A DNA stretch of 64,000 nt from Bacteroidales bacterium (lineage in GTDB: Bacteria > Bacteroidota > Bacteroidia > Bacteroidales > P3), in assembly GCA_017633985.1 (NCBI GenBank), contig JAGBOF010000019.1, positions 1 through 64,000 of the forward strand, in the 5' to 3' direction. A program made the position numbers and the translations under genes. The notes under the pieces were generated by a model. The model ran no database searches. It saw nothing but the letters and a program-made list of their open reading frames with translations, and was not told the origin of the DNA. Below are positions 6,196 through 62,578 of this stretch, one piece after another (position 1 is the stretch's first letter; each line of letters begins with the position of its first letter).

Positions 6196-6280
6196 TAAAA
6201 ATTAAGGCGTAAAAAAATATTAATCAGCGACGAAAATTTTTTAATCAGCGATAAAAATTTATTAAAACGCTGTTTTAACA
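6196..6280. repeat. 21-bp-periodic palindromic element E2
   Basis: Four pentamers: aGGCG (centre 6207), CAGCG (6227), CAGCG (6248), CGCTG (6270); spacings 20, 21, 22, total 63. The two inner units are TTAATCAGCGAYRAAAA-like. The right end carries CGCTG instead of the usual CGGCG. Confidence 0.85.
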
Positions 6281-14608: not shown

Positions 14609-14699
14609 ATAAAAATAAGACGGCGTTTGAGTAAATTAAAACGGCGTTTTATTTTTTTAATCAGCCTGATTAATTTACTGAAACGGCGTTTTATTTTGA
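14609..14699. repeat. 21-bp-periodic palindromic element E4
   Basis: Four pentamers: CGGCG (centre 14623), CGGCG (14644), CAGCCTG (14665), CGGCG (14686); three intervals of exactly 21. The left arm has AGAC before the core but the right arm has GTTTT, so the pair is not fully complementary. Confidence 0.88.
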
Positions 14700-30062: not shown

Positions 30063-30172
30063 TCAAATTAAAACGCCGTCTTATCTTATTAATCTGCGAC
30101 GAAAATTTACTAATCTGCGACGAAAATTTTTTAATCTGCGATAAAAATTTTTTAAGACGGCGTTTTATTTTT
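30063..30172. repeat. 21-bp-periodic palindromic element E8 (long form)
   Basis: Five pentamers: CGCCG (centre 30076), CTGCG (30096), CTGCG (30117), CTGCG (30138), CGGCG (30160); spacings 20, 21, 21, 22, total 84. Three inner AATCTGCGAYRAAAATTT units lie between covarying ends CGCCGTCTTA (30074-30083) and TAAGACGGCG (30153-30162). It sits between two divergent promoters. Confidence 0.93.
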
Positions 30173-30314
30173 ACATCAAGCCGTATTAGTTTTTTCTTAT
30201 ATAAAATATAAAAAATTTTTTTACGTTTTTAATTATGCAAAAGGCTTAAAACAGTCTTTATTTGCACAAAAAAACAAATTGAATTAACAAAATACTGATT
30301 TTAAACAGAATTTT

Positions 30315-32639
30315 ATGGCATCATTACCGTCTTTGATTACCGATTTGGGCGTTATCGTCATCTTGGGAAGCATCTTTGCTTTAATATGCAAGTGGTTGAA
30401 ACAGCCCGTTGTGCTTGGTTATATCATAGCAGGCTTTATCGCCGGTCCGCATTTCCATTTGTTTCAAACCGTTCAACCCGAAAATATCTCAACTTGGGCA
30501 GACATAGGAGTTATATTCCTTTTGTTCGGAATGGGACTGGAATTCAGTTTCAAAAAACTGATGACTATCGGCAAAATAGGCGGAAAGGCAATCGGTTTTG
30601 TCATAATTGCGTTGGGCTTGACGGGGTTCGGTGTCGGTCAATTGATAGGTTGGAAGCCTGCGGACAGTATTCTTTTGAGTGCAATGTTGGTTATGTCCTC
30701 TACGGCTATGATTGTCAAATCCCTTACCGATATGGGTTACAGCAAAGAGAAGTTTGCGCAGATAGTTTTCGGTATTTTGATTTTTGACGACTTGTTTGCA
30801 ATCCTTGCAATGGTTATATTATCCACTTTTGCCGCCTCGGCGCAGTTCCACGGCGGCGAATTGGCTATGGTTTTGGTGAGATTGATTTTCTTTATTGTGA
30901 TTTGGATAGTTGTAGGTATCTTCTTAATTCCTACATTCCTTAAAAAAACTAAACGGCATCTGAACGACGAAATCCTTATGCTCATTGCAATCGGTCTGTG
31001 TCTTGCTATGGTAATGTTATCCGTCAAAGTAGGATTTTCTTCTGCCCTGGGAGCGTTTGTAATGGGCAGCATATTGGCGGAAACATTGGACCAGGAACGA
31101 ATAAGCCGAGTTGTGGCGCCGCTTAGGGACTTTTTCGGAATGATATTTTTCGTGTCTGTCGGAATGATGGTGGATCCTAAAATCCTTACTGCCAATATCG
31201 GCACAATAATCATCATATCCCTTATACCGATTGTGTTTAAAAATCTGTTTTATATAATAGGCGTTAAATTGGCAGGCGAAAGCCTTGAAACAAGTGTGCG
31301 TGCTGGTTTTTCCATGTCGCAGATGGGTGAATTTTCTTTTATTGTCGCACAGACGGGAATCAGTTTAGGTTTGATTTCTGCGGAAGTTTATCCCGTGGCA
31401 ATCGCTGTCAGCGTACTTACTACCTTTGTTACTCCGTACAGCATACGCTTGGGTGAGCCCGCATACAATCTTATCACAAAATTACTGCCTTACGATAAAT
31501 ACAAACGCCTTTATAACGGCAAGAATGACGATAGCACGGCGGCGGAAAGTACACTTGCTGCGGCGGAAAGCGAAAAATCCGTTTGGAGTCAATATCTGAA
31601 ATCATACTTTGCGCGTCTTGCTTTATACATTATTATTTGTGTTGCGATATTGCTCATAAGCATTAATCTGTTGTTACCGTTGGCTGACACAAGTAAGCAC
31701 TACATTCTGATGAGAATCGTTTTTTGTTTGGCAACTCTCGTTATTATGGCACCGCTTTTACGCGGTATGATTCACAATACGGGTAAACAGGCGTATTTGT
31801 ATCTTACCCTTTGGACGGACAGTCATAACAACCGTTTCATTCTGTCGTTTTTTACGACAATACGCTATGTTGTTGCAATAGTATTCGCTTTCTTTGTCAT
31901 AACCAAGTATTCGCATGTACCGTCATGGGTGGATATCATCGTGGCAGTGGTATTCTTTGCCGTGATATTCAACTCCAAAAGATTACTTCGCTACAATTGG
32001 AGCATAGAATCGCGTTTTGTCAAAAACTTCAACGCACGCCAGATAGTGGAACAAAGCAAGAAAACAAAGAGTAAGCTCAACGAATTGGACAATCTGCACT
32101 GGATTGACTCCAATATGTACTTTGCCGAATATTTAGTAACAGCTGAAGGAAAATTGAACGGAAAGAGTTTAAAGGAACTTAACTTCCGTAAAGAATATAA
32201 CGTACTTGTTATCTCGGTTATGCGAAGCGGTAAAGAGTATTCGCTTGTAGGCGGAGATTTTACGCTTATGGGCGGGGACATTCTGTATATGCTCGGAACG
32301 TTAGGCTCATTGCGAAGGTTGGATATGGATGATGACAGCGTATCTTTGGATTACACGAAGATAAAAACGCTTAACGATTTCAACTTATCGCAAAAGGCGG
32401 ACGAAAACTCACAACTGCACTGCGTAACATTCCAAATAGAAAAAGGCAGTGAATGGATTGGCAAAACGCTTATAGATTCTTCATTAATTGAAGGGCGTTG
32501 TATGGTTATTGCCATCGAAAGAAACGACACCCCTATCATCAATCCGTCTTCGCACCTAAAGTTTGAGGAAAACGACACGGTATGGGTAATCGGTGACAAG
32601 GCTGTTGTCTATAAACTTTTGGAGAAAAAATATTTTTAA
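30315..32639 (+). CDS. KefB/CPA2-type cation:proton antiporter (second copy)
   Basis: 774 residues with the same order as the 29983 gene: exchanger domain (GYIIAGFIAGPHFHLFQT, SSTAMIVKSLTDMGYSKEKF, FGILIFDDLFAILAM, SALGAFVMGSILAETLDQE), a central membrane section and two TrkA-C domains ending in VIGDKAVVYKLLEKKYF. The pair is similar over the whole length, so this is a duplication followed by divergence, now head-to-head. A poly-Ala/Glu linker (about 410-425) is unique to this copy. Its stop TAA runs directly into AACGCCG of the next repeat element. Confidence 0.9.
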   Translation: MASLPSLITDLGVIVILGSIFALICKWLKQPVVLGYIIAGFIAGPHFHLFQTVQPENISTWADIGVIFLLFGMGLEFSFKKLMTIGKIGGKAIGFVIIALGLTGFGVGQLIGWKPADSILLSAMLVMSSTAMIVKSLTDMGYSKEKFAQIVFGILIFDDLFAILAMVILSTFAASAQFHGGELAMVLVRLIFFIVIWIVVGIFLIPTFLKKTKRHLNDEILMLIAIGLCLAMVMLSVKVGFSSALGAFVMGSILAETLDQERISRVVAPLRDFFGMIFFVSVGMMVDPKILTANIGTIIIISLIPIVFKNLFYIIGVKLAGESLETSVRAGFSMSQMGEFSFIVAQTGISLGLISAEVYPVAIAVSVLTTFVTPYSIRLGEPAYNLITKLLPYDKYKRLYNGKNDDSTAAESTLAAAESEKSVWSQYLKSYFARLALYIIICVAILLISINLLLPLADTSKHYILMRIVFCLATLVIMAPLLRGMIHNTGKQAYLYLTLWTDSHNNRFILSFFTTIRYVVAIVFAFFVITKYSHVPSWVDIIVAVVFFAVIFNSKRLLRYNWSIESRFVKNFNARQIVEQSKKTKSKLNELDNLHWIDSNMYFAEYLVTAEGKLNGKSLKELNFRKEYNVLVISVMRSGKEYSLVGGDFTLMGGDILYMLGTLGSLRRLDMDDDSVSLDYTKIKTLNDFNLSQKADENSQLHCVTFQIEKGSEWIGKTLIDSSLIEGRCMVIAIERNDTPIINPSSHLKFEENDTVWVIGDKAVVYKLLEKKYF

Positions 32640-35699: not shown

Positions 35700-35800
35700 A
35701 CAAAAATAAAACGCCGTTTCAGTAAATTTTTATCGCTGATTAAAAAATTTTTATCGCTGATTAATTTACTCAAACGACGTGTTATTTTTGTCAAACGGCG
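35700..35800. repeat. 21-bp-periodic palindromic element E10 (overlaps lpxB 3' end)
   Basis: Pentamers CGCCG (centre 35714), CGCTG (35736), CGCTG (35757), CGaCG (35777), CGGCG (35798); spacings 22, 21, 20, 21, total 84. The last pentamer lies inside lpxB and encodes its final Ala-Val before TGA. Two inner units TTTTTATCGCTGATTAA are identical. Confidence 0.9.
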
Positions 35801-37013: not shown

Positions 37014-37289
37014 AGTTATGTAATTATATTTCTTTAAAATTATTATTACCGCACCTAAAGTGACAATTAACGATATTACCGAACCTTTTAAACTGCTTTG
37101 CATCTCTTTGCGGGCATACAAACGCATGAGTAAAATTTCGGGAATAACACAAAAAACGAACATTTTGGCATGTACAAGCATGTCAATGTGAAATAAACGC
37201 TGCAATACAGCGATTACAAACGCCGCAATGACGGTTACAAAAAACGAACAGACAAATCCGTTTAATATTTTGTCTTCTTTAAACCACAT
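37008..37289 (-). CDS. Small three-helix membrane protein
   Basis: 93 residues with three hydrophobic segments (about 11-33, 41-60 and 66-87) and basic loops; no known motif. It starts at the stop codon of surE (37289) and precedes lpxB, so all three share a transcript. A small membrane protein between surE and lpxB is also seen in other Bacteroidales. Function unknown. Confidence 0.7.
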   Translation of the reverse strand: MWFKEDKILNGFVCSFFVTVIAAFVIAVLQRLFHIDMLVHAKMFVFCVIPEILLMRLYARKEMQSSLKGSVISLIVTLGAVIIILKKYNYITM

Positions 37290-38056
37290 TACTGTATATT
37301 CTCAAAACGTTTTCTTGTTTTATCCAAATATTTCCACGCCGTAAAATCCACCTGCATAGGAACAACGGCAGCATATCCGTCATTAACCGCATTCCAATCC
37401 GCACTGGGATCGTTATCCGTACAATGGTATTCCCCGCCTAACCAAAAAATGGTGTGACCGTCCTGCTCAACCGATTTATCAAACTCTTCCGTCCAATAAC
37501 CCTGCGCCTGATGTCCCACTTTTATGCCTTTAATCTTACCCGTAGGGAAATTAACGTTAAGACATACCGTATCATCCAAACCGTTGGCGATAACCTCGTT
37601 TATAATCTTCCTTACAAACGGTTCGCACTCCGTAAGGTCGGCGTCTTTGTCGTTATCGCAAAGAGAAAATCCCACGCTGGCAACATGTTCGGCGCATCCT
37701 TCCATCACGGCAGCCATAGTACCAGAATAAATAGTGTTAATGGAAGTATTAGCCCCCATATTAATGCCTGCAAACAAGAAATCGGGACGGCGTTTGAGCA
37801 CATTGTCAAAACCCATCTTCACACAATCAACGGGAGTTCCCTCAAGAGCATATTCTTCGTAATGTTCCTCCTTACAAATCTGCTTCAATTTCAACGGAAG
37901 TCCCGTAGTAATGGAATGACTCTTACCGCTCATCTCCGTTTTGGGTGCAACAACGACCACATCCCCCAAAGGACGCAGAATATCCACCAACATACGGATA
38001 CCTTTAGCCTGATAGCCGTCATCATTGGTAATAAATATCAATGGTTTTTGATTCAT
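37289..38056 (-). CDS. surE: 5'/3'-nucleotidase SurE
   Basis: SurE removes phosphate from nucleoside monophosphates and is part of stationary-phase survival. The metal site is FITNDDGYQAKGI (about residues 7-19), with APKTEMSGKSHSIT, NMGANTSINTIYSGTM and GTPVDCVKMG. The start is ATG 38056 (MNQKPLIFITNDDG); a longer in-frame start at 38155 would add a tail not seen in the family and overlap the nitroreductase gene. Length 255 is normal. Confidence 0.93.
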   Translation of the reverse strand: MNQKPLIFITNDDGYQAKGIRMLVDILRPLGDVVVVAPKTEMSGKSHSITTGLPLKLKQICKEEHYEEYALEGTPVDCVKMGFDNVLKRRPDFLFAGINMGANTSINTIYSGTMAAVMEGCAEHVASVGFSLCDNDKDADLTECEPFVRKIINEVIANGLDDTVCLNVNFPTGKIKGIKVGHQAQGYWTEEFDKSVEQDGHTIFWLGGEYHCTDNDPSADWNAVNDGYAAVVPMQVDFTAWKYLDKTRKRFENIQ

Positions 38057-38145
38057 AATATTTTTATAAAACTGTATACGCTGATTTTTATCTGTCTTTA
38101 CTGCGGCAATATGCTCTTTGCCTGCCGCCGCAGCGGATAAAACCT

Positions 38146-38811
38146 CTATAACCAAGTAAAATTCTCTTTTCCTGCCGCAATCTCAAAATGATACTTCACA
38201 ATACCCAAATCCAATTTGGTGTAAAATCCCCAACCTTTCTGCATTCCGACCTGATTGCCCGACAAAATGAATTTAAACTTCTGCTGATTCATCGCAGTAG
38301 GTGCCAACAAAGCCGCCTGTACTCCCTTTTTAAACCAATCAGGAGCATTTTCTGCATTTTTAGTCACCTGCTCATAGGTTTTTATCTTGTGTTCCACACC
38401 GTGGTTCACCCCGTAACCCAAAGCAATAACACAAATCAACTTCTCATCCGCATTGATCTTAATCTTATTCTTCTTTTTGCTGTAAGTAAGTGCCACCCAA
38501 CAGGTATTAAGTCCCATCATCTGTGCCTGAAGCACTAACTTCTCACCGTAATATCCCGCATTGATGTCATTATCCGCCGATTTTTTACCGACGATTGCGA
38601 AATAATTCACGGCATTGGAGAATTTACCGTAATGGGCTGTCATTGTATTGAAAGCATCCTTATCTTCGGTTATCAACTGTATGTTAAGACCGCTTTCTTT
38701 ATTGCACTTATCAATCTCTTTCTGCAATGTTTTGATTTTTTCCGCCTCAATCTTTTTGTCAACAAACGCCCTTACGCTGTGTCTTTGCTTTATAGCTTCT
38801 GTGATATCCAT
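38146..38811 (-). CDS. Nitroreductase-family FMN protein
   Basis: 221 residues. The N-terminal IKQRHSVRAFVDKKIEAEKI (about residues 6-25) is the flavin-binding start of the family, and NAGYYGEKLVLQAQMMGLNTCWV (86-108, shortened here) is the central helix. These enzymes reduce nitro compounds or flavins with NAD(P)H; the substrate is unknown. This member resembles the small Bacteroidetes type that lacks a long C-terminal lid. It lies 89 nt upstream of surE and 27 nt behind gtrA. Confidence 0.85.
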   Translation of the reverse strand: MDITEAIKQRHSVRAFVDKKIEAEKIKTLQKEIDKCNKESGLNIQLITEDKDAFNTMTAHYGKFSNAVNYFAIVGKKSADNDINAGYYGEKLVLQAQMMGLNTCWVALTYSKKKNKIKINADEKLICVIALGYGVNHGVEHKIKTYEQVTKNAENAPDWFKKGVQAALLAPTAMNQQKFKFILSGNQVGMQKGWGFYTKLDLGIVKYHFEIAAGKENFTWL

Positions 38812-38838
38812 ACAAATAAGATCTTTATATATTTAAAA

Positions 38839-39336
38839 TTACTGATTCTTTTTATTTCGGGAAAATACGAATGTTTTGTTCAATAAAAACGTCATAATTG
38901 CATTCGGAAGCACCACAATCAACTGACCTATAGCGTCTCCGACTTTATCATGTGCTAAAGAAAATCTCTCAACTATATTCAAACATCCGCCGTCTATGCC
39001 TATCAACCATTCGTAAAGCCCGCTTTCTGCCAAAAAATGCAATTCCGCCAAATTGACCGCATACATGATACCGTAGACAACGAAAAATTGCAGAATAACA
39101 CTGTAACCTTTGTTCTCAAAAACTAATTTGCCCGTACTGTGATAATTGAAAGTGACCGCCAAAACCGTACTTACAAGCACCGCAACGGCTCTTTCCATGC
39201 CCACCCAACGGCATAAAATGAACAATGTGTAACCTACCAAAGTGTTTATCACACCCACGAACAGAAAACGTATAAATCGGTTTTCTATTCTCATCAATAA
39301 ATCTATCGGTTTATGTATTGCCTGTACAAAAGTCAT
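38839..39336 (-). CDS. GtrA-family membrane protein
   Basis: 165 residues with four membrane helices, starting RFLFVGVINTLVGYTLFIL (about residues 22-40), the GtrA hallmark (FxxVGxxNTxxxY). GtrA-like proteins help move undecaprenyl-linked sugars in O-antigen or wall glycan modification. This copy has an added segment of about 20 residues between helices 3 and 4. It has its own promoter; the nitroreductase follows after 27 nt. Confidence 0.88.
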   Translation of the reverse strand: MTFVQAIHKPIDLLMRIENRFIRFLFVGVINTLVGYTLFILCRWVGMERAVAVLVSTVLAVTFNYHSTGKLVFENKGYSVILQFFVVYGIMYAVNLAELHFLAESGLYEWLIGIDGGCLNIVERFSLAHDKVGDAIGQLIVVLPNAIMTFLLNKTFVFSRNKKNQ

Positions 39337-39355: not shown

Positions 39356-39363
39356 CAAAGTTA
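39356..39363 (-). promoter_or_regulatory. gtrA promoter box
   Basis: TAACTTTG on the minus strand, 20 nt before the ATG. Confidence 0.65.
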
Positions 39364-39447
39364 GTTCTTTTTTGCCGCAAAGCCAAAGATTTTTTTAACT
39401 TTTCGCAACATGTCACCGCCTATATGTTTATTCATTATTATATAGGG

Positions 39448-39534
39448 CAAAAATAAGACGGCGTTTTAATAAATTAATCAGCGATAAAAATTTATTTTTA
39501 CGGCGTTTTAATATTTTTTTACGCCGTCTTTTTT
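39448..39534. repeat. 21-bp-periodic palindromic element E11
   Basis: Pentamers CGGCG (centre 39461), CAGCG (39481), CGGCG (39503), CGCCG (39524); spacings 20, 22, 21, total 63. The ends AAGACGGCG and CGCCGTCTT are complementary (the AGAC/GTCT variant). Confidence 0.9.
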
Positions 39535-39654
39535 AACTACCTCAATAACAGTATCTTTCAAAGCCCTATTTTTACCTCAAAAAATATCGTTTTTTATAGC
39601 CGGAATCGTCACTTTAATGACCCAAAATACCTACTCGGTGCTGCGTAATGTTTC

Positions 39655-39965
39655 CTTTATTATAAAATACGCTTATTTAATAATATATCTTGCTGTTTTA
39701 ATAATAAAACACACTTGTTTATGTCTGTATAAATGCTAATCTATAATAAAACACACTTGCTTAATTATATATTATGCTGCTTTAGTAATAAAACTCATTG
39801 GTTTAAGTCGGTATAAATGCTAATTTATAATAAAGTACGCTTGTTTAATAATATATCTTGCTACTTTAATAATAAAACACACTTGTTTAAGTCGGTATAA
39901 ATGCTAATCTATAATAAAACACACTTGTTTAATGATATATCTTGCTGTTTTAATAATAAAAATTG
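39655..39965. repeat. 42-bp tandem repeat array, alternating two unit types
   Basis: A conserved AAAACACACTTGTTTAA-like word recurs at 39664, 39706, 39748, 39790, 39832, 39874, 39916 and (partly) 39958, exactly 42 bp apart each time. The second half of the unit alternates between type B (ATATATCTTGCTGTTTTAATA) and type A (GTCGGTATAAATGCTAATC), so the true repeat is 84 bp. Stops occur in all six frames, so it is not coding. 42 is twice the 21-bp step of the nearby elements. Confidence 0.93.
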
Positions 39966-40012
39966 TTTGTTTTATGATGGAAAGCGGTATTTTGAGGCAC
40001 TCTTATAACTAA

Positions 40013-40042
40013 AAACTCCGGAAATATTGCATTCCGGAGTTT
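40013..40042 (-). terminator. rpsA terminator
   Basis: Perfect 11-bp stem AAACTCCGGAA/TTCCGGAGTTT with an 8-nt loop, 37 nt behind the rpsA stop. Confidence 0.8.
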
Positions 40043-40079
40043 CAAATTAAAACAAAATGTCATGAAAATTTCAAGATTC

Positions 40080-41843
40080 TTAATTCTCTTTCTTTTCCAT
40101 TTCTTCCTTCAATGAAGCCAATACATCCAAATCACCTAACGTTGTTTTTTCCAACTGTTGGTTTATTTTCTTAACAGGATTTGCTTCCTTTTTAGATTTG
40201 GATTCTTCTTCCTGACGCCATGTGCGGGTGTGGGAAAGAACTATACGTTTTGCTTCTTTCTGGAATTCAATTACTCTGAATTGAAGTTTTTCGTCTACTT
40301 TAGGGTTAGACTTATCTTCTTTCTGCATTTGACCTTTCGGGCAGAAGCCTTCAATTCCGTAAGGTAGGTTAACTACGCAACCGCTCTTATCATTAACGCT
40401 TGTAACAGTACCTTCGTGTACGGAACCAACGGTAAAGATTGTTTCAAATACGTCCCAAGGATTTTCTTCCAATTGTTTGTGACCCAAAGACAATCTTCTG
40501 TTTTCAGGATCAACCTCCAAAACAACTACATCAATCTTTTCGCCTACTTTTGTAAACTCTGCCGGGTGTTTAATCTTCTTGGACCAAGACAAATCAGATA
40601 TGTGGATCAAACCGTCAACGCCTTCTTCCAATTCAACGAATATTCCGAAGTTAGTAAAGTTACGTACCGTTGCCGTGTGTTTACTTCCTACAGGATATTT
40701 CTCTGCAATGTTTACCCAAGGATCTGGCATAAGTTGCTTCATACCCAAAGACATTTTTCTTTCTTCTCTGTCCAAAGTAAGGATAACAGCTTCCACTTCG
40801 TCGCCTACCTTTAAGAAATCATGAGCTGTACGTAAGTGCTGGCTCCAACTCATTTCCGTTACGTGAATCAAACCTTCTACGCCGGGGATAATCTCAACGA
40901 ATGCGCCGTAATCCGCAATCACTACAACTTTTCCTTTAATCTTGTCACCGACTTTAAGATTTGCGTCAAGCTGATCCCATGGGTGAGGAGTAAGTTGCTT
41001 CAAGCCCAAAGCGATACGCTTCTTTGCTTCGTCGAAATCAAGGATAACCACCTTAATCTTATCATCCAAATGAACGATTTCTTCAGGAGAATTGATTCTT
41101 CCCCAAGACAAATCGGTAATGTGTATCAAACCGTCAACACCTCCCAAATCAATGAATACACCGTAAGATGTAATGTTCTTAACCGTTCCTTCAAGAACCT
41201 GACCTTTCTCAAGGTGAGACATAATTTCGGCTTTCTGTGCTTCGATTTCGTCTTCAATCAATGCTTTGTGCGAAACAACGATGTTCTTATACTCATTGTT
41301 AATTTTAACAATCTTGAATTCCATTGTTTTATCCACAAAAACATCGTAATCTCTGATAGGTTTAACGTCAATCTGCGAACCAGGTAAGAATGCCTCAATA
41401 CCGAATACATCAACAATCAAACCGCCCTTTGTTCTGGATTTAACATAACCCTTAATAATCTCCTGACTGTCATAAGCCTCGTTAACTCTGCCCCATGATT
41501 TCAAGATTCTTGCTTTTTTGTGGGAAAGAAGCAATTGACCGTTTGAATCCTCTTGGTTTTCAATAAATACTTCTACTTTGTCGCCCACTTTCAAATCAGG
41601 GTTGTAACGGAATTCTGCAGCAGGAATAATACCGTCTGATTTAAAATCAATGTTTACGACAACCTCTCTGTCATTCAAAGAAACTACCGTACCTTCTGCC
41701 AACTGTTCGTTACCTATTGTACCGAAAGTCTTGTCGTAAGCCTGTTGTAATTTCTCTCTGTCTTCCTGTGAATATTGCTGTTTGCTGTCAACTGTAGCCC
41801 AATCAAAATCCTGTAAGGGCTGAACGTTTTTTAAGTCTCTCAT
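40080..41843 (-). CDS. rpsA: 30S ribosomal protein S1
   Basis: 587 residues with six S1 (OB-fold) RNA-binding domains in a row. Domains 3, 4 and 5 are closest to consensus: GTVKNITSYGVFIDLGGVDG, KVVVIADYGAFVEIIPGVEG and VRNFTNFGIFVELEEGVDG, each followed by GLIH(I/V)(T/S). Domains 1, 2 and 6 are more diverged. S1 helps the ribosome bind mRNA leaders, important where Shine-Dalgarno sites are weak, as in this phylum. The C-terminal 45 residues are charged. It is a single gene with promoter 41959-41966. Confidence 0.96.
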   Translation of the reverse strand: MRDLKNVQPLQDFDWATVDSKQQYSQEDREKLQQAYDKTFGTIGNEQLAEGTVVSLNDREVVVNIDFKSDGIIPAAEFRYNPDLKVGDKVEVFIENQEDSNGQLLLSHKKARILKSWGRVNEAYDSQEIIKGYVKSRTKGGLIVDVFGIEAFLPGSQIDVKPIRDYDVFVDKTMEFKIVKINNEYKNIVVSHKALIEDEIEAQKAEIMSHLEKGQVLEGTVKNITSYGVFIDLGGVDGLIHITDLSWGRINSPEEIVHLDDKIKVVILDFDEAKKRIALGLKQLTPHPWDQLDANLKVGDKIKGKVVVIADYGAFVEIIPGVEGLIHVTEMSWSQHLRTAHDFLKVGDEVEAVILTLDREERKMSLGMKQLMPDPWVNIAEKYPVGSKHTATVRNFTNFGIFVELEEGVDGLIHISDLSWSKKIKHPAEFTKVGEKIDVVVLEVDPENRRLSLGHKQLEENPWDVFETIFTVGSVHEGTVTSVNDKSGCVVNLPYGIEGFCPKGQMQKEDKSNPKVDEKLQFRVIEFQKEAKRIVLSHTRTWRQEEESKSKKEANPVKKINQQLEKTTLGDLDVLASLKEEMEKKEN

Positions 41844-43596: not shown

Positions 43597-43706
43597 TAAA
43601 ATTAAGACGCCGTTTCAGTAAATTTTTATCGCACATCAGTAAATTTTTATCGCTGATTAATAAATTAAAACGCCGTTTTATTTTTTTGAAACGGCGTTTT
43701 GATAAA
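43597..43706. repeat. 21-bp-periodic palindromic element E13 (long form)
   Basis: Five pentamers: CGCCG (centre 43610), CGCAC (43632), CGCTG (43653), CGCCG (43673), CGGCG (43694); spacings 22, 21, 20, 21, total 84. The phrase CAGTAAATTTTTATCGC occurs twice within it, 21 bp apart, showing a unit duplication. Confidence 0.9.
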
Positions 43707-48784: not shown

Positions 48785-48872
48785 GAAATAAAACGCCGTT
48801 TCAGTAAATTAATCTGCGACAAAAATTTTTTAATCTGCGATAAAAATTTACTGAAACGGCGTTTTATTTTTA
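48785..48872. repeat. 21-bp-periodic palindromic element E14 (best-preserved copy)
   Basis: Pentamers CGCCG (centre 48796), CTGCG (48816), CTGCG (48837), CGGCG (48859); spacings 20, 21, 22, total 63. The ends 48786-48810 and 48845-48869 are a perfect 25-bp inverted repeat, including the copy-specific CAGTAAA/TTTACTG. Two inner AATCTGCGAYAAAAATTT units form the loop. Confidence 0.95.
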
Positions 48873-62484: not shown

Positions 62485-62578
62485 ATAAAATAATACGGCG
62501 TAAAAAAAATATTAAAACGCCGTATTATTTTACTGATAAGGCGTTTTAATTTCTTAAAACGGCGTGTTTTTTTTACGG
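62485..62578. repeat. 21-bp-periodic palindromic element E16
   Basis: Pentamers CGGCG (centre 62498), CGCCG (62520), AGGCG (62541), CGGCG (62562); spacings 22, 21, 21. The first two cores carry complementary flanks AATACGGCG/CGCCGTATT (the ATAC/GTAT variant). It follows sprA in a 357-bp convergent spacer that holds nothing else but the 62663 terminator. Confidence 0.88.

Follow-up and report, generated by a model that had tools for sequence, protein, structure and literature searches.

A 306-bp, AT-rich, non-coding tandem array lies between rpsA and a gene for a GtrA-like membrane protein in an uncultured Bacteroidales bacterium (GenBank GCA_017633985.1, contig JAGBOF010000019.1), within the 64,000-nt stretch analyzed here (the window). 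The features of this region are listed in Table 1. Both neighbouring genes are encoded on the minus strand, and the hairpin behind rpsA can also be found 3′ of rpsA in relatives. The pattern of the gtrA promoter motif occurs near chance level across the window, and its placement at gtrA fits; it lies 270 bp downstream of the array. A first-pass annotation, made from the sequence alone, had placed the array between the rpsA terminator and the gtrA promoter, 120 bp from an element termed E11. The hairpin and the promoter-like motif bear out this location, and the distance to E11, which contains TTTTTATCGCTGATTAA at 39474-39490 on the minus strand, was measured as 121 bp. Because it falls between the rpsA hairpin and the gtrA promoter motif, the array is predicted to be untranscribed and to lie outside both transcription units.

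Table 1. Features of the rpsA-gtrA region (positions in the window).
Feature	Position	Strand	Description
GtrA-like membrane protein gene (gtrA)	38839-39336	minus	ORF; named from the first-pass annotation and gene context
gtrA promoter motif	39356-39387	minus	Bacteroidota-type, TTTG-N20-TAACTTTG
E11	39451-39534	none	Inverted-repeat element of the genome-wide 21-bp family; inverted repeat I1, direct repeat D2 at spacing 42
Tandem array	39656-39961	none	42-bp units in alternation, built on 14-15 steps of 21 bp; higher-order periods of 84 bp and 168 bp
First type A 42-bp unit	39662-39703	none	Composed of a pair of related 21-bp modules (39662-39682, 39683-39703)
Further type A units	starts 39746, 39830, 39914
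First type B 42-bp unit	39704-39745	none	Its two modules are unlike each other
Further type B units	starts 39788, 39872
rpsA terminator-like hairpin	40003-40052	minus	Inverted repeat I2, 81% complementary arms
rpsA (ribosomal protein S1)	40080-41843	minus	ORF; full-length homologues across Bacteroidales

Homologues of the gtrA-like gene were found in 11 of 13 genomes of the same genus or close to it. In 10 of the 11 other genomes with a close homologue, gtrA stands head to head with surE, whereas here it follows rpsA, so that, among the genomes examined, only this lineage has the junction whose gap holds the array. Within the window, surE and gtrA (37289-39336) are not head to head, and the gene order around the array is therefore rearranged in this lineage. 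None of the relatives with a readable rpsA 3′ end carries the array at that position.

Structure and distribution of the array

The array is marked by the motif ATAAA(A/G) at positions 39662, 39704, 39746, 39788, 39830, 39872, 39914 and 39956, a spacing of exactly 42 bp. Tandem Repeats Finder (TRF) returned periods of 168 (90% matches), 84 (84%), 42 (70%) and 21 bp (53%). Self-identity was 0.906 at lag 168, 0.838 at lag 84, 0.580 at lag 42, 0.567 at lag 126 and 0.449 at lag 21, compared with 0.33 in dinucleotide shuffles; against 300 such shuffles, the corresponding z-scores were 16.9 (lag 84), 14.4 (lag 168), 9.3 (lag 42) and 4.4 (lag 21). The first-pass annotation had described eight marks exactly 42 bp apart and two unit types in alternation, giving an 84-bp higher-order period, and this observation is real and accurately described. 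The best period is 168 bp, which means that the 84-bp pairs are themselves paired, a level absent from that description.

Read in lines of 21 bp, the array repeats the order A-first (ATAAAACACACTTGTTTAATA and variants), A-second (ATATATCTTGCTGTTTTAATA), B-first (ATAAAACACACTTGTTTAAGT) and B-second (CGGTATAAATGCTAATCTATA); after the mark, type A units run on with ATATATCTTGCTGTTTTAATA and type B units with CGGTATAAATGCTAATCTATA. The two type A modules agree at 14 of 21 places, and the type A unit matches itself at a shift of 21, counted around a circular 42-bp unit, at 28 of 42 places (P = 0.0003). The modules of the type B unit show no such kinship at shift 21 (P = 0.65). Among shifts of the array against itself, 21 ranks second to 42. 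Since the A modules are related at shift 21 and the B modules are not, a base step of 21 bp appears to have been doubled to 42 bp, with one second module changed or replaced, before the steps to 84 and 168 bp.

G/C bases cluster at phases 6-13 of each 21 bp (P = 0.025), with A/T linkers between them. In modules 0-2, the linkers are less variable among copies than the cores (P = 0.004, with phases picked post hoc); over all four modules the difference is not significant (P = 0.08). This lower linker variability could hint at constraint. The core words vary among the array copies and, in modules 0-2, more than the linkers, so that there is no conserved core word per unit. By eye, AAACAnnnnTGTTT in the first modules has a weak palindromic look.

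All six reading frames across the array are stopped, with a longest stop-free run of 45 codons in the 400 bp from 39600 to 40000; the array is non-coding, as had been proposed, and a coding repeat of 7, 14 or 28 codons is ruled out. On one measure, its intrinsic curvature, calculated from wedge angles, was greater than that of plain shuffles (P = 0.015), but it did not exceed that of tiled shuffles (P = 0.32); the array is hence no more curved than any periodic sequence of like make-up.

The array is a single match in its own genome. A genome-wide search with TAAAACACACTTGTTTAA (up to 3 mismatches), suggested by the first-pass annotation as a check, returned no further array, and 30 relatives from its genus, family and order gave no copy. 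The only DNA match in relatives (G007:C19) spans 40 bp within a coding gene and was taken as chance. Searches of phages and plasmids gave no match, and viral contigs contained no exact 18-mer of the array. The analysis found no terminal inverted repeats at either end; the only pairs were AT-rich ones of 14-15 bp inside the array and a single 14-bp, 86% pair, 354 bp apart, just beyond it. No target-site duplication was seen at the array.

A genome-wide class of intergenic repeats with a 21-bp step

The genome-wide figures derive from a 464-kb sample (19%; the window and 20 stretches) and from pattern searches of the whole draft genome of 36 contigs, with genes called as simple ORFs of at least 90 codons. 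In the sample, 84 of 89 non-coding tandem arrays have a period of 21, 22 or a multiple of 21. The rpsA-gtrA array shares this feature through its periods of 42, 84 and 168 bp and its intergenic position between transcription units; at 306 bp it is the longest of its class seen here, followed by one of 113 bp (median 57 bp in the sample). With the focal region excluded, intergenic self-similarity at lag 21 was 0.369 vs. 0.295 (z about 45); further peaks stood at lags 42, 63, 84 and 105, while lags 10, 11, 31 and 32 showed almost nothing. Of the intergenic regions of 100 bp or more, 47% contain a strong lag-21 stretch, compared with 0.1% of shuffles, and such stretches occur in all four gene orientations. 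The commonest word, AAAACGCCGTTTTA, was found at 457 places (up to 1 mismatch; reversed control 14), and TTTTTATCGCTGATTAA at 182 places (up to 2 mismatches; control 0). AAAACGCCGTTTTA falls at 111 intergenic and only 8 coding places, even though the simple ORF calls assign 88% of the sample to coding sequence. A promoter-like TAnnTTTGCA motif lies between the array and the next gene in 18 of 41 same-strand array gaps and on the other side in 1 of 41; reversed controls showed no such bias in placement. Elements with a 21-bp step can be seen in the window at 6211-6265, 14620-14697, 30086-30155, 35724-35764, 43615-43666, 48809-48849 and 62512-62565; such elements frequently carry inverted ACGCCGTTT words at their ends and enclose units of the TCGCTGATTAA type.

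The first-pass annotation had linked the array to this 21-bp element family. The link holds for pitch, given the genome-wide lag-21 signal and the rank of shift 21 within the array, but not for sequence: 8-10-mers of the 84-bp consensus recurred in the genome's 21-bp elements no more often than those of shuffled versions of it (p 0.15-0.21), which leaves descent from the ACGCCGTTTTA/TCGCTGATTAA elements unsupported. We infer that the array belongs to the class by pitch and place, not by its letters.

The relatives were sampled thinly, with at most 119 kb each. G007 had a strong lag-21 periodicity (z 15); that of G008, G013 and G016, the last of which represents another genus of the same family, was clear (z 5-8), and that of G003, G004, G010 and G012 was weaker or undersampled; the genomes sampled from other families, in small samples, gave little or no lag-21 signal. 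The words differ between species, with AACAAAGAGATAGAAAATTAA in G007, AATCAAAAGACATTTAAATAG in G012 and TTTTCAGAAAACATTTTACTC in G008. AAAACGCCGTTTTA is abundant only in the present genome, in G004 (296) and in G006 (90), whereas G003, G011 and G008 are closer to this genome by RpsA or HtpG; TTTTTATCGCTGATTAA is abundant in this genome only. Close relatives share 90-96% HtpG identity, and the words differ even from those of G008, whose HtpG is 96% identical. From these comparisons, turnover of the words seems to outpace the divergence of species, with the 21-bp pitch unchanged. G007 also has 42-bp arrays of two alternating 21-bp modules, the build of the focal array in other letters. Both rpsA and htpG are broken into two open frames in G004 (G004:C14:886363-888115 and 30076-31966), perhaps through sequencing errors in the assembly.

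Origin and possible role of the array

We lean towards reading the array as an untranscribed, inert intergenic minisatellite that grew on a 21-bp frame through tandem duplications out of register. Growth would have started from a short 21-bp-step array in this species and proceeded by replication slippage or unequal recombination of whole blocks, from 21 to 42, 84 and 168 bp. The A/T-rich linkers, alike every 21 bp, would make copies misalign in multiples of 21, so that the 42/84/168 hierarchy could arise without dedicated machinery. Between a terminator and a promoter such an array would damage nothing and would be tolerated; locally, it probably does nothing specific to rpsA or gtrA. We infer both the duplication route and the lack of function; the points for this reading include the nested periods, an identity that rises with block size, from 0.45 (21 bp) through 0.58 (42 bp) and 0.84 (84 bp) to 0.91 (168 bp), and the kinship of the two type A modules. 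Out-of-register growth is the simplest account of the nested periods, the uniqueness of the array and the lack of clear constraint. However, inert growth leaves unexplained why the 21-bp pitch is found everywhere and outlasts the change of words from one species to another. The lack of 21-bp kinship in the second type B module also speaks against it, as do the k-mer comparison with the genome's other 21-bp elements and the lower linker variability.

Two turns of the DNA helix correspond to 21 bp. The pitch could be accounted for by a putative protein that reads two-turn spacing, namely a nucleoid-associated or insulator-like protein bound to one helix face every 21 bp, for which the long array would be a strong nucleation site between two transcription units. 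The first-pass annotation had suggested that the array may be a binding array or a variable-number repeat locus; we consider a spaced binding array unlikely, though worth keeping in view. It is consistent with a pitch held strictly at 21 bp across the genome and in several species whose words differ, with the missing 10/11-bp signal in this genome, with the G/C clustering and the palindromic look of AAACAnnnnTGTTT, and with the position of arrays upstream of promoter motifs. The core words, however, are unconserved both among copies and between species, and a place between transcription units, including the promoter-side bias, is equally expected of tolerated inert DNA. That the array is instead a non-autonomous, MITE-like element with expanded internal repeats, comparable to BrickBuilt of Porphyromonas gingivalis, is improbable. 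P. gingivalis, also of the Bacteroidales, does have MITEs with 23- and 41-nt tandem repeats (PMC4596501), and many smaller 21-bp elements of the present genome end in inverted repeats, but the focal array lacks terminal inverted repeats and a visible target-site duplication, and its single copy rules out a dispersed mobile element.

The position of the array upstream of gtrA, on the same strand, would suit a regulatory leader or structured RNA of gtrA, or else a part of the rpsA terminator. This is very improbable: its folding energy is no better than that of shuffles on either strand (z +0.74 and +0.31), an Rfam search with the array gave no match, the gtrA promoter motif lies downstream of it, and a separate hairpin stands behind rpsA. 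Equally remote is an assembly artefact, either a false expansion or a collapsed longer array. Long repeats are easily misassembled in a draft genome such as this one, and extra array copies may have collapsed, but the copies differ at many sites and nest regularly, unlike a joining error, and the whole genome is dotted with smaller arrays that have this pitch.

Taken alone, the focal array would be of interest mainly as a possible strain marker. Its context matters, since a strict 21-bp pitch is found in about half of the longer intergenic regions and is kept across the genus despite word change: either tandem duplication holds one register for long, or a component of the cell reads the two-turn spacing. 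It is rather doubtful, but conceivable, that a cellular system in this genus keeps the two-turn pitch between transcription units while words turn over between species. An example of such a pitch keeper would be a putative insulator or nucleoid protein that reads linker spacing, with the rpsA-gtrA array as its largest site seen here.

Comparison with other tandem repeats

The searchable open-access literature describes no such 21-bp class; the leads are the P. gingivalis repeats and the TAACTGA repeats. Bacterial intergenic minisatellite or variable-number tandem repeat (VNTR) loci resemble the focal array as non-coding tandem repeats with a nested, duplication-like history between two genes. 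VNTRs are defined by copy-number variation among strains; the focal array, a candidate for such a locus, is set apart by a period bound to the 21-bp pitch of the whole genome. BrickBuilt is likewise a Bacteroidales repeat that is always intergenic, with head-to-tail 23-nt repeats without spacers, but it is dispersed (19 copies in ATCC 33277) and has one repeat word, a leader, a tail and IS5-like terminal inverted repeats (PMC4596501); the focal array is a single copy without such ends and has a 21/42 step. The 41-nt tandem repeats of PgRS/MITE464 of P. gingivalis are close to 42 bp in unit length, but these elements are dispersed and have terminal inverted repeats (PMC4596501), and, compared by description, no sequence relation to the focal array is apparent. 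The TAACTGA direct repeats of Beggiatoaceae, Cyanobacteria and some Bacteroidetes are also abundant and intergenic, with a proposed regulatory role, but they are heptamers found mostly just upstream of start codons (PMC4679880), in contrast to the 21-bp modules upstream of promoter motifs seen here.

Other repeat types can be found among the relatives. Other genera of the family and order (L024:6938-7032; samples of G015 and G018) have an intergenic periodicity of 11 bp, not 21 bp, exemplified by tandem TTGTTGTCCGC units that make a perfect long palindrome. A 168-bp tandem repeat extends over at least 7.2 kb in G012 (L154:12789-20000; about 43 copies) and probably belongs to a gene for a large repetitive surface protein, a gene that runs off the stretch. 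An uncultured Parabacteroides carries an independent 41/42-bp array of alternating units behind the gene that follows rpsA (L090:7567-7874), and the units in this region (L090:7540-7980) each hold a short palindrome such as CCGCACTTGTGGGA.
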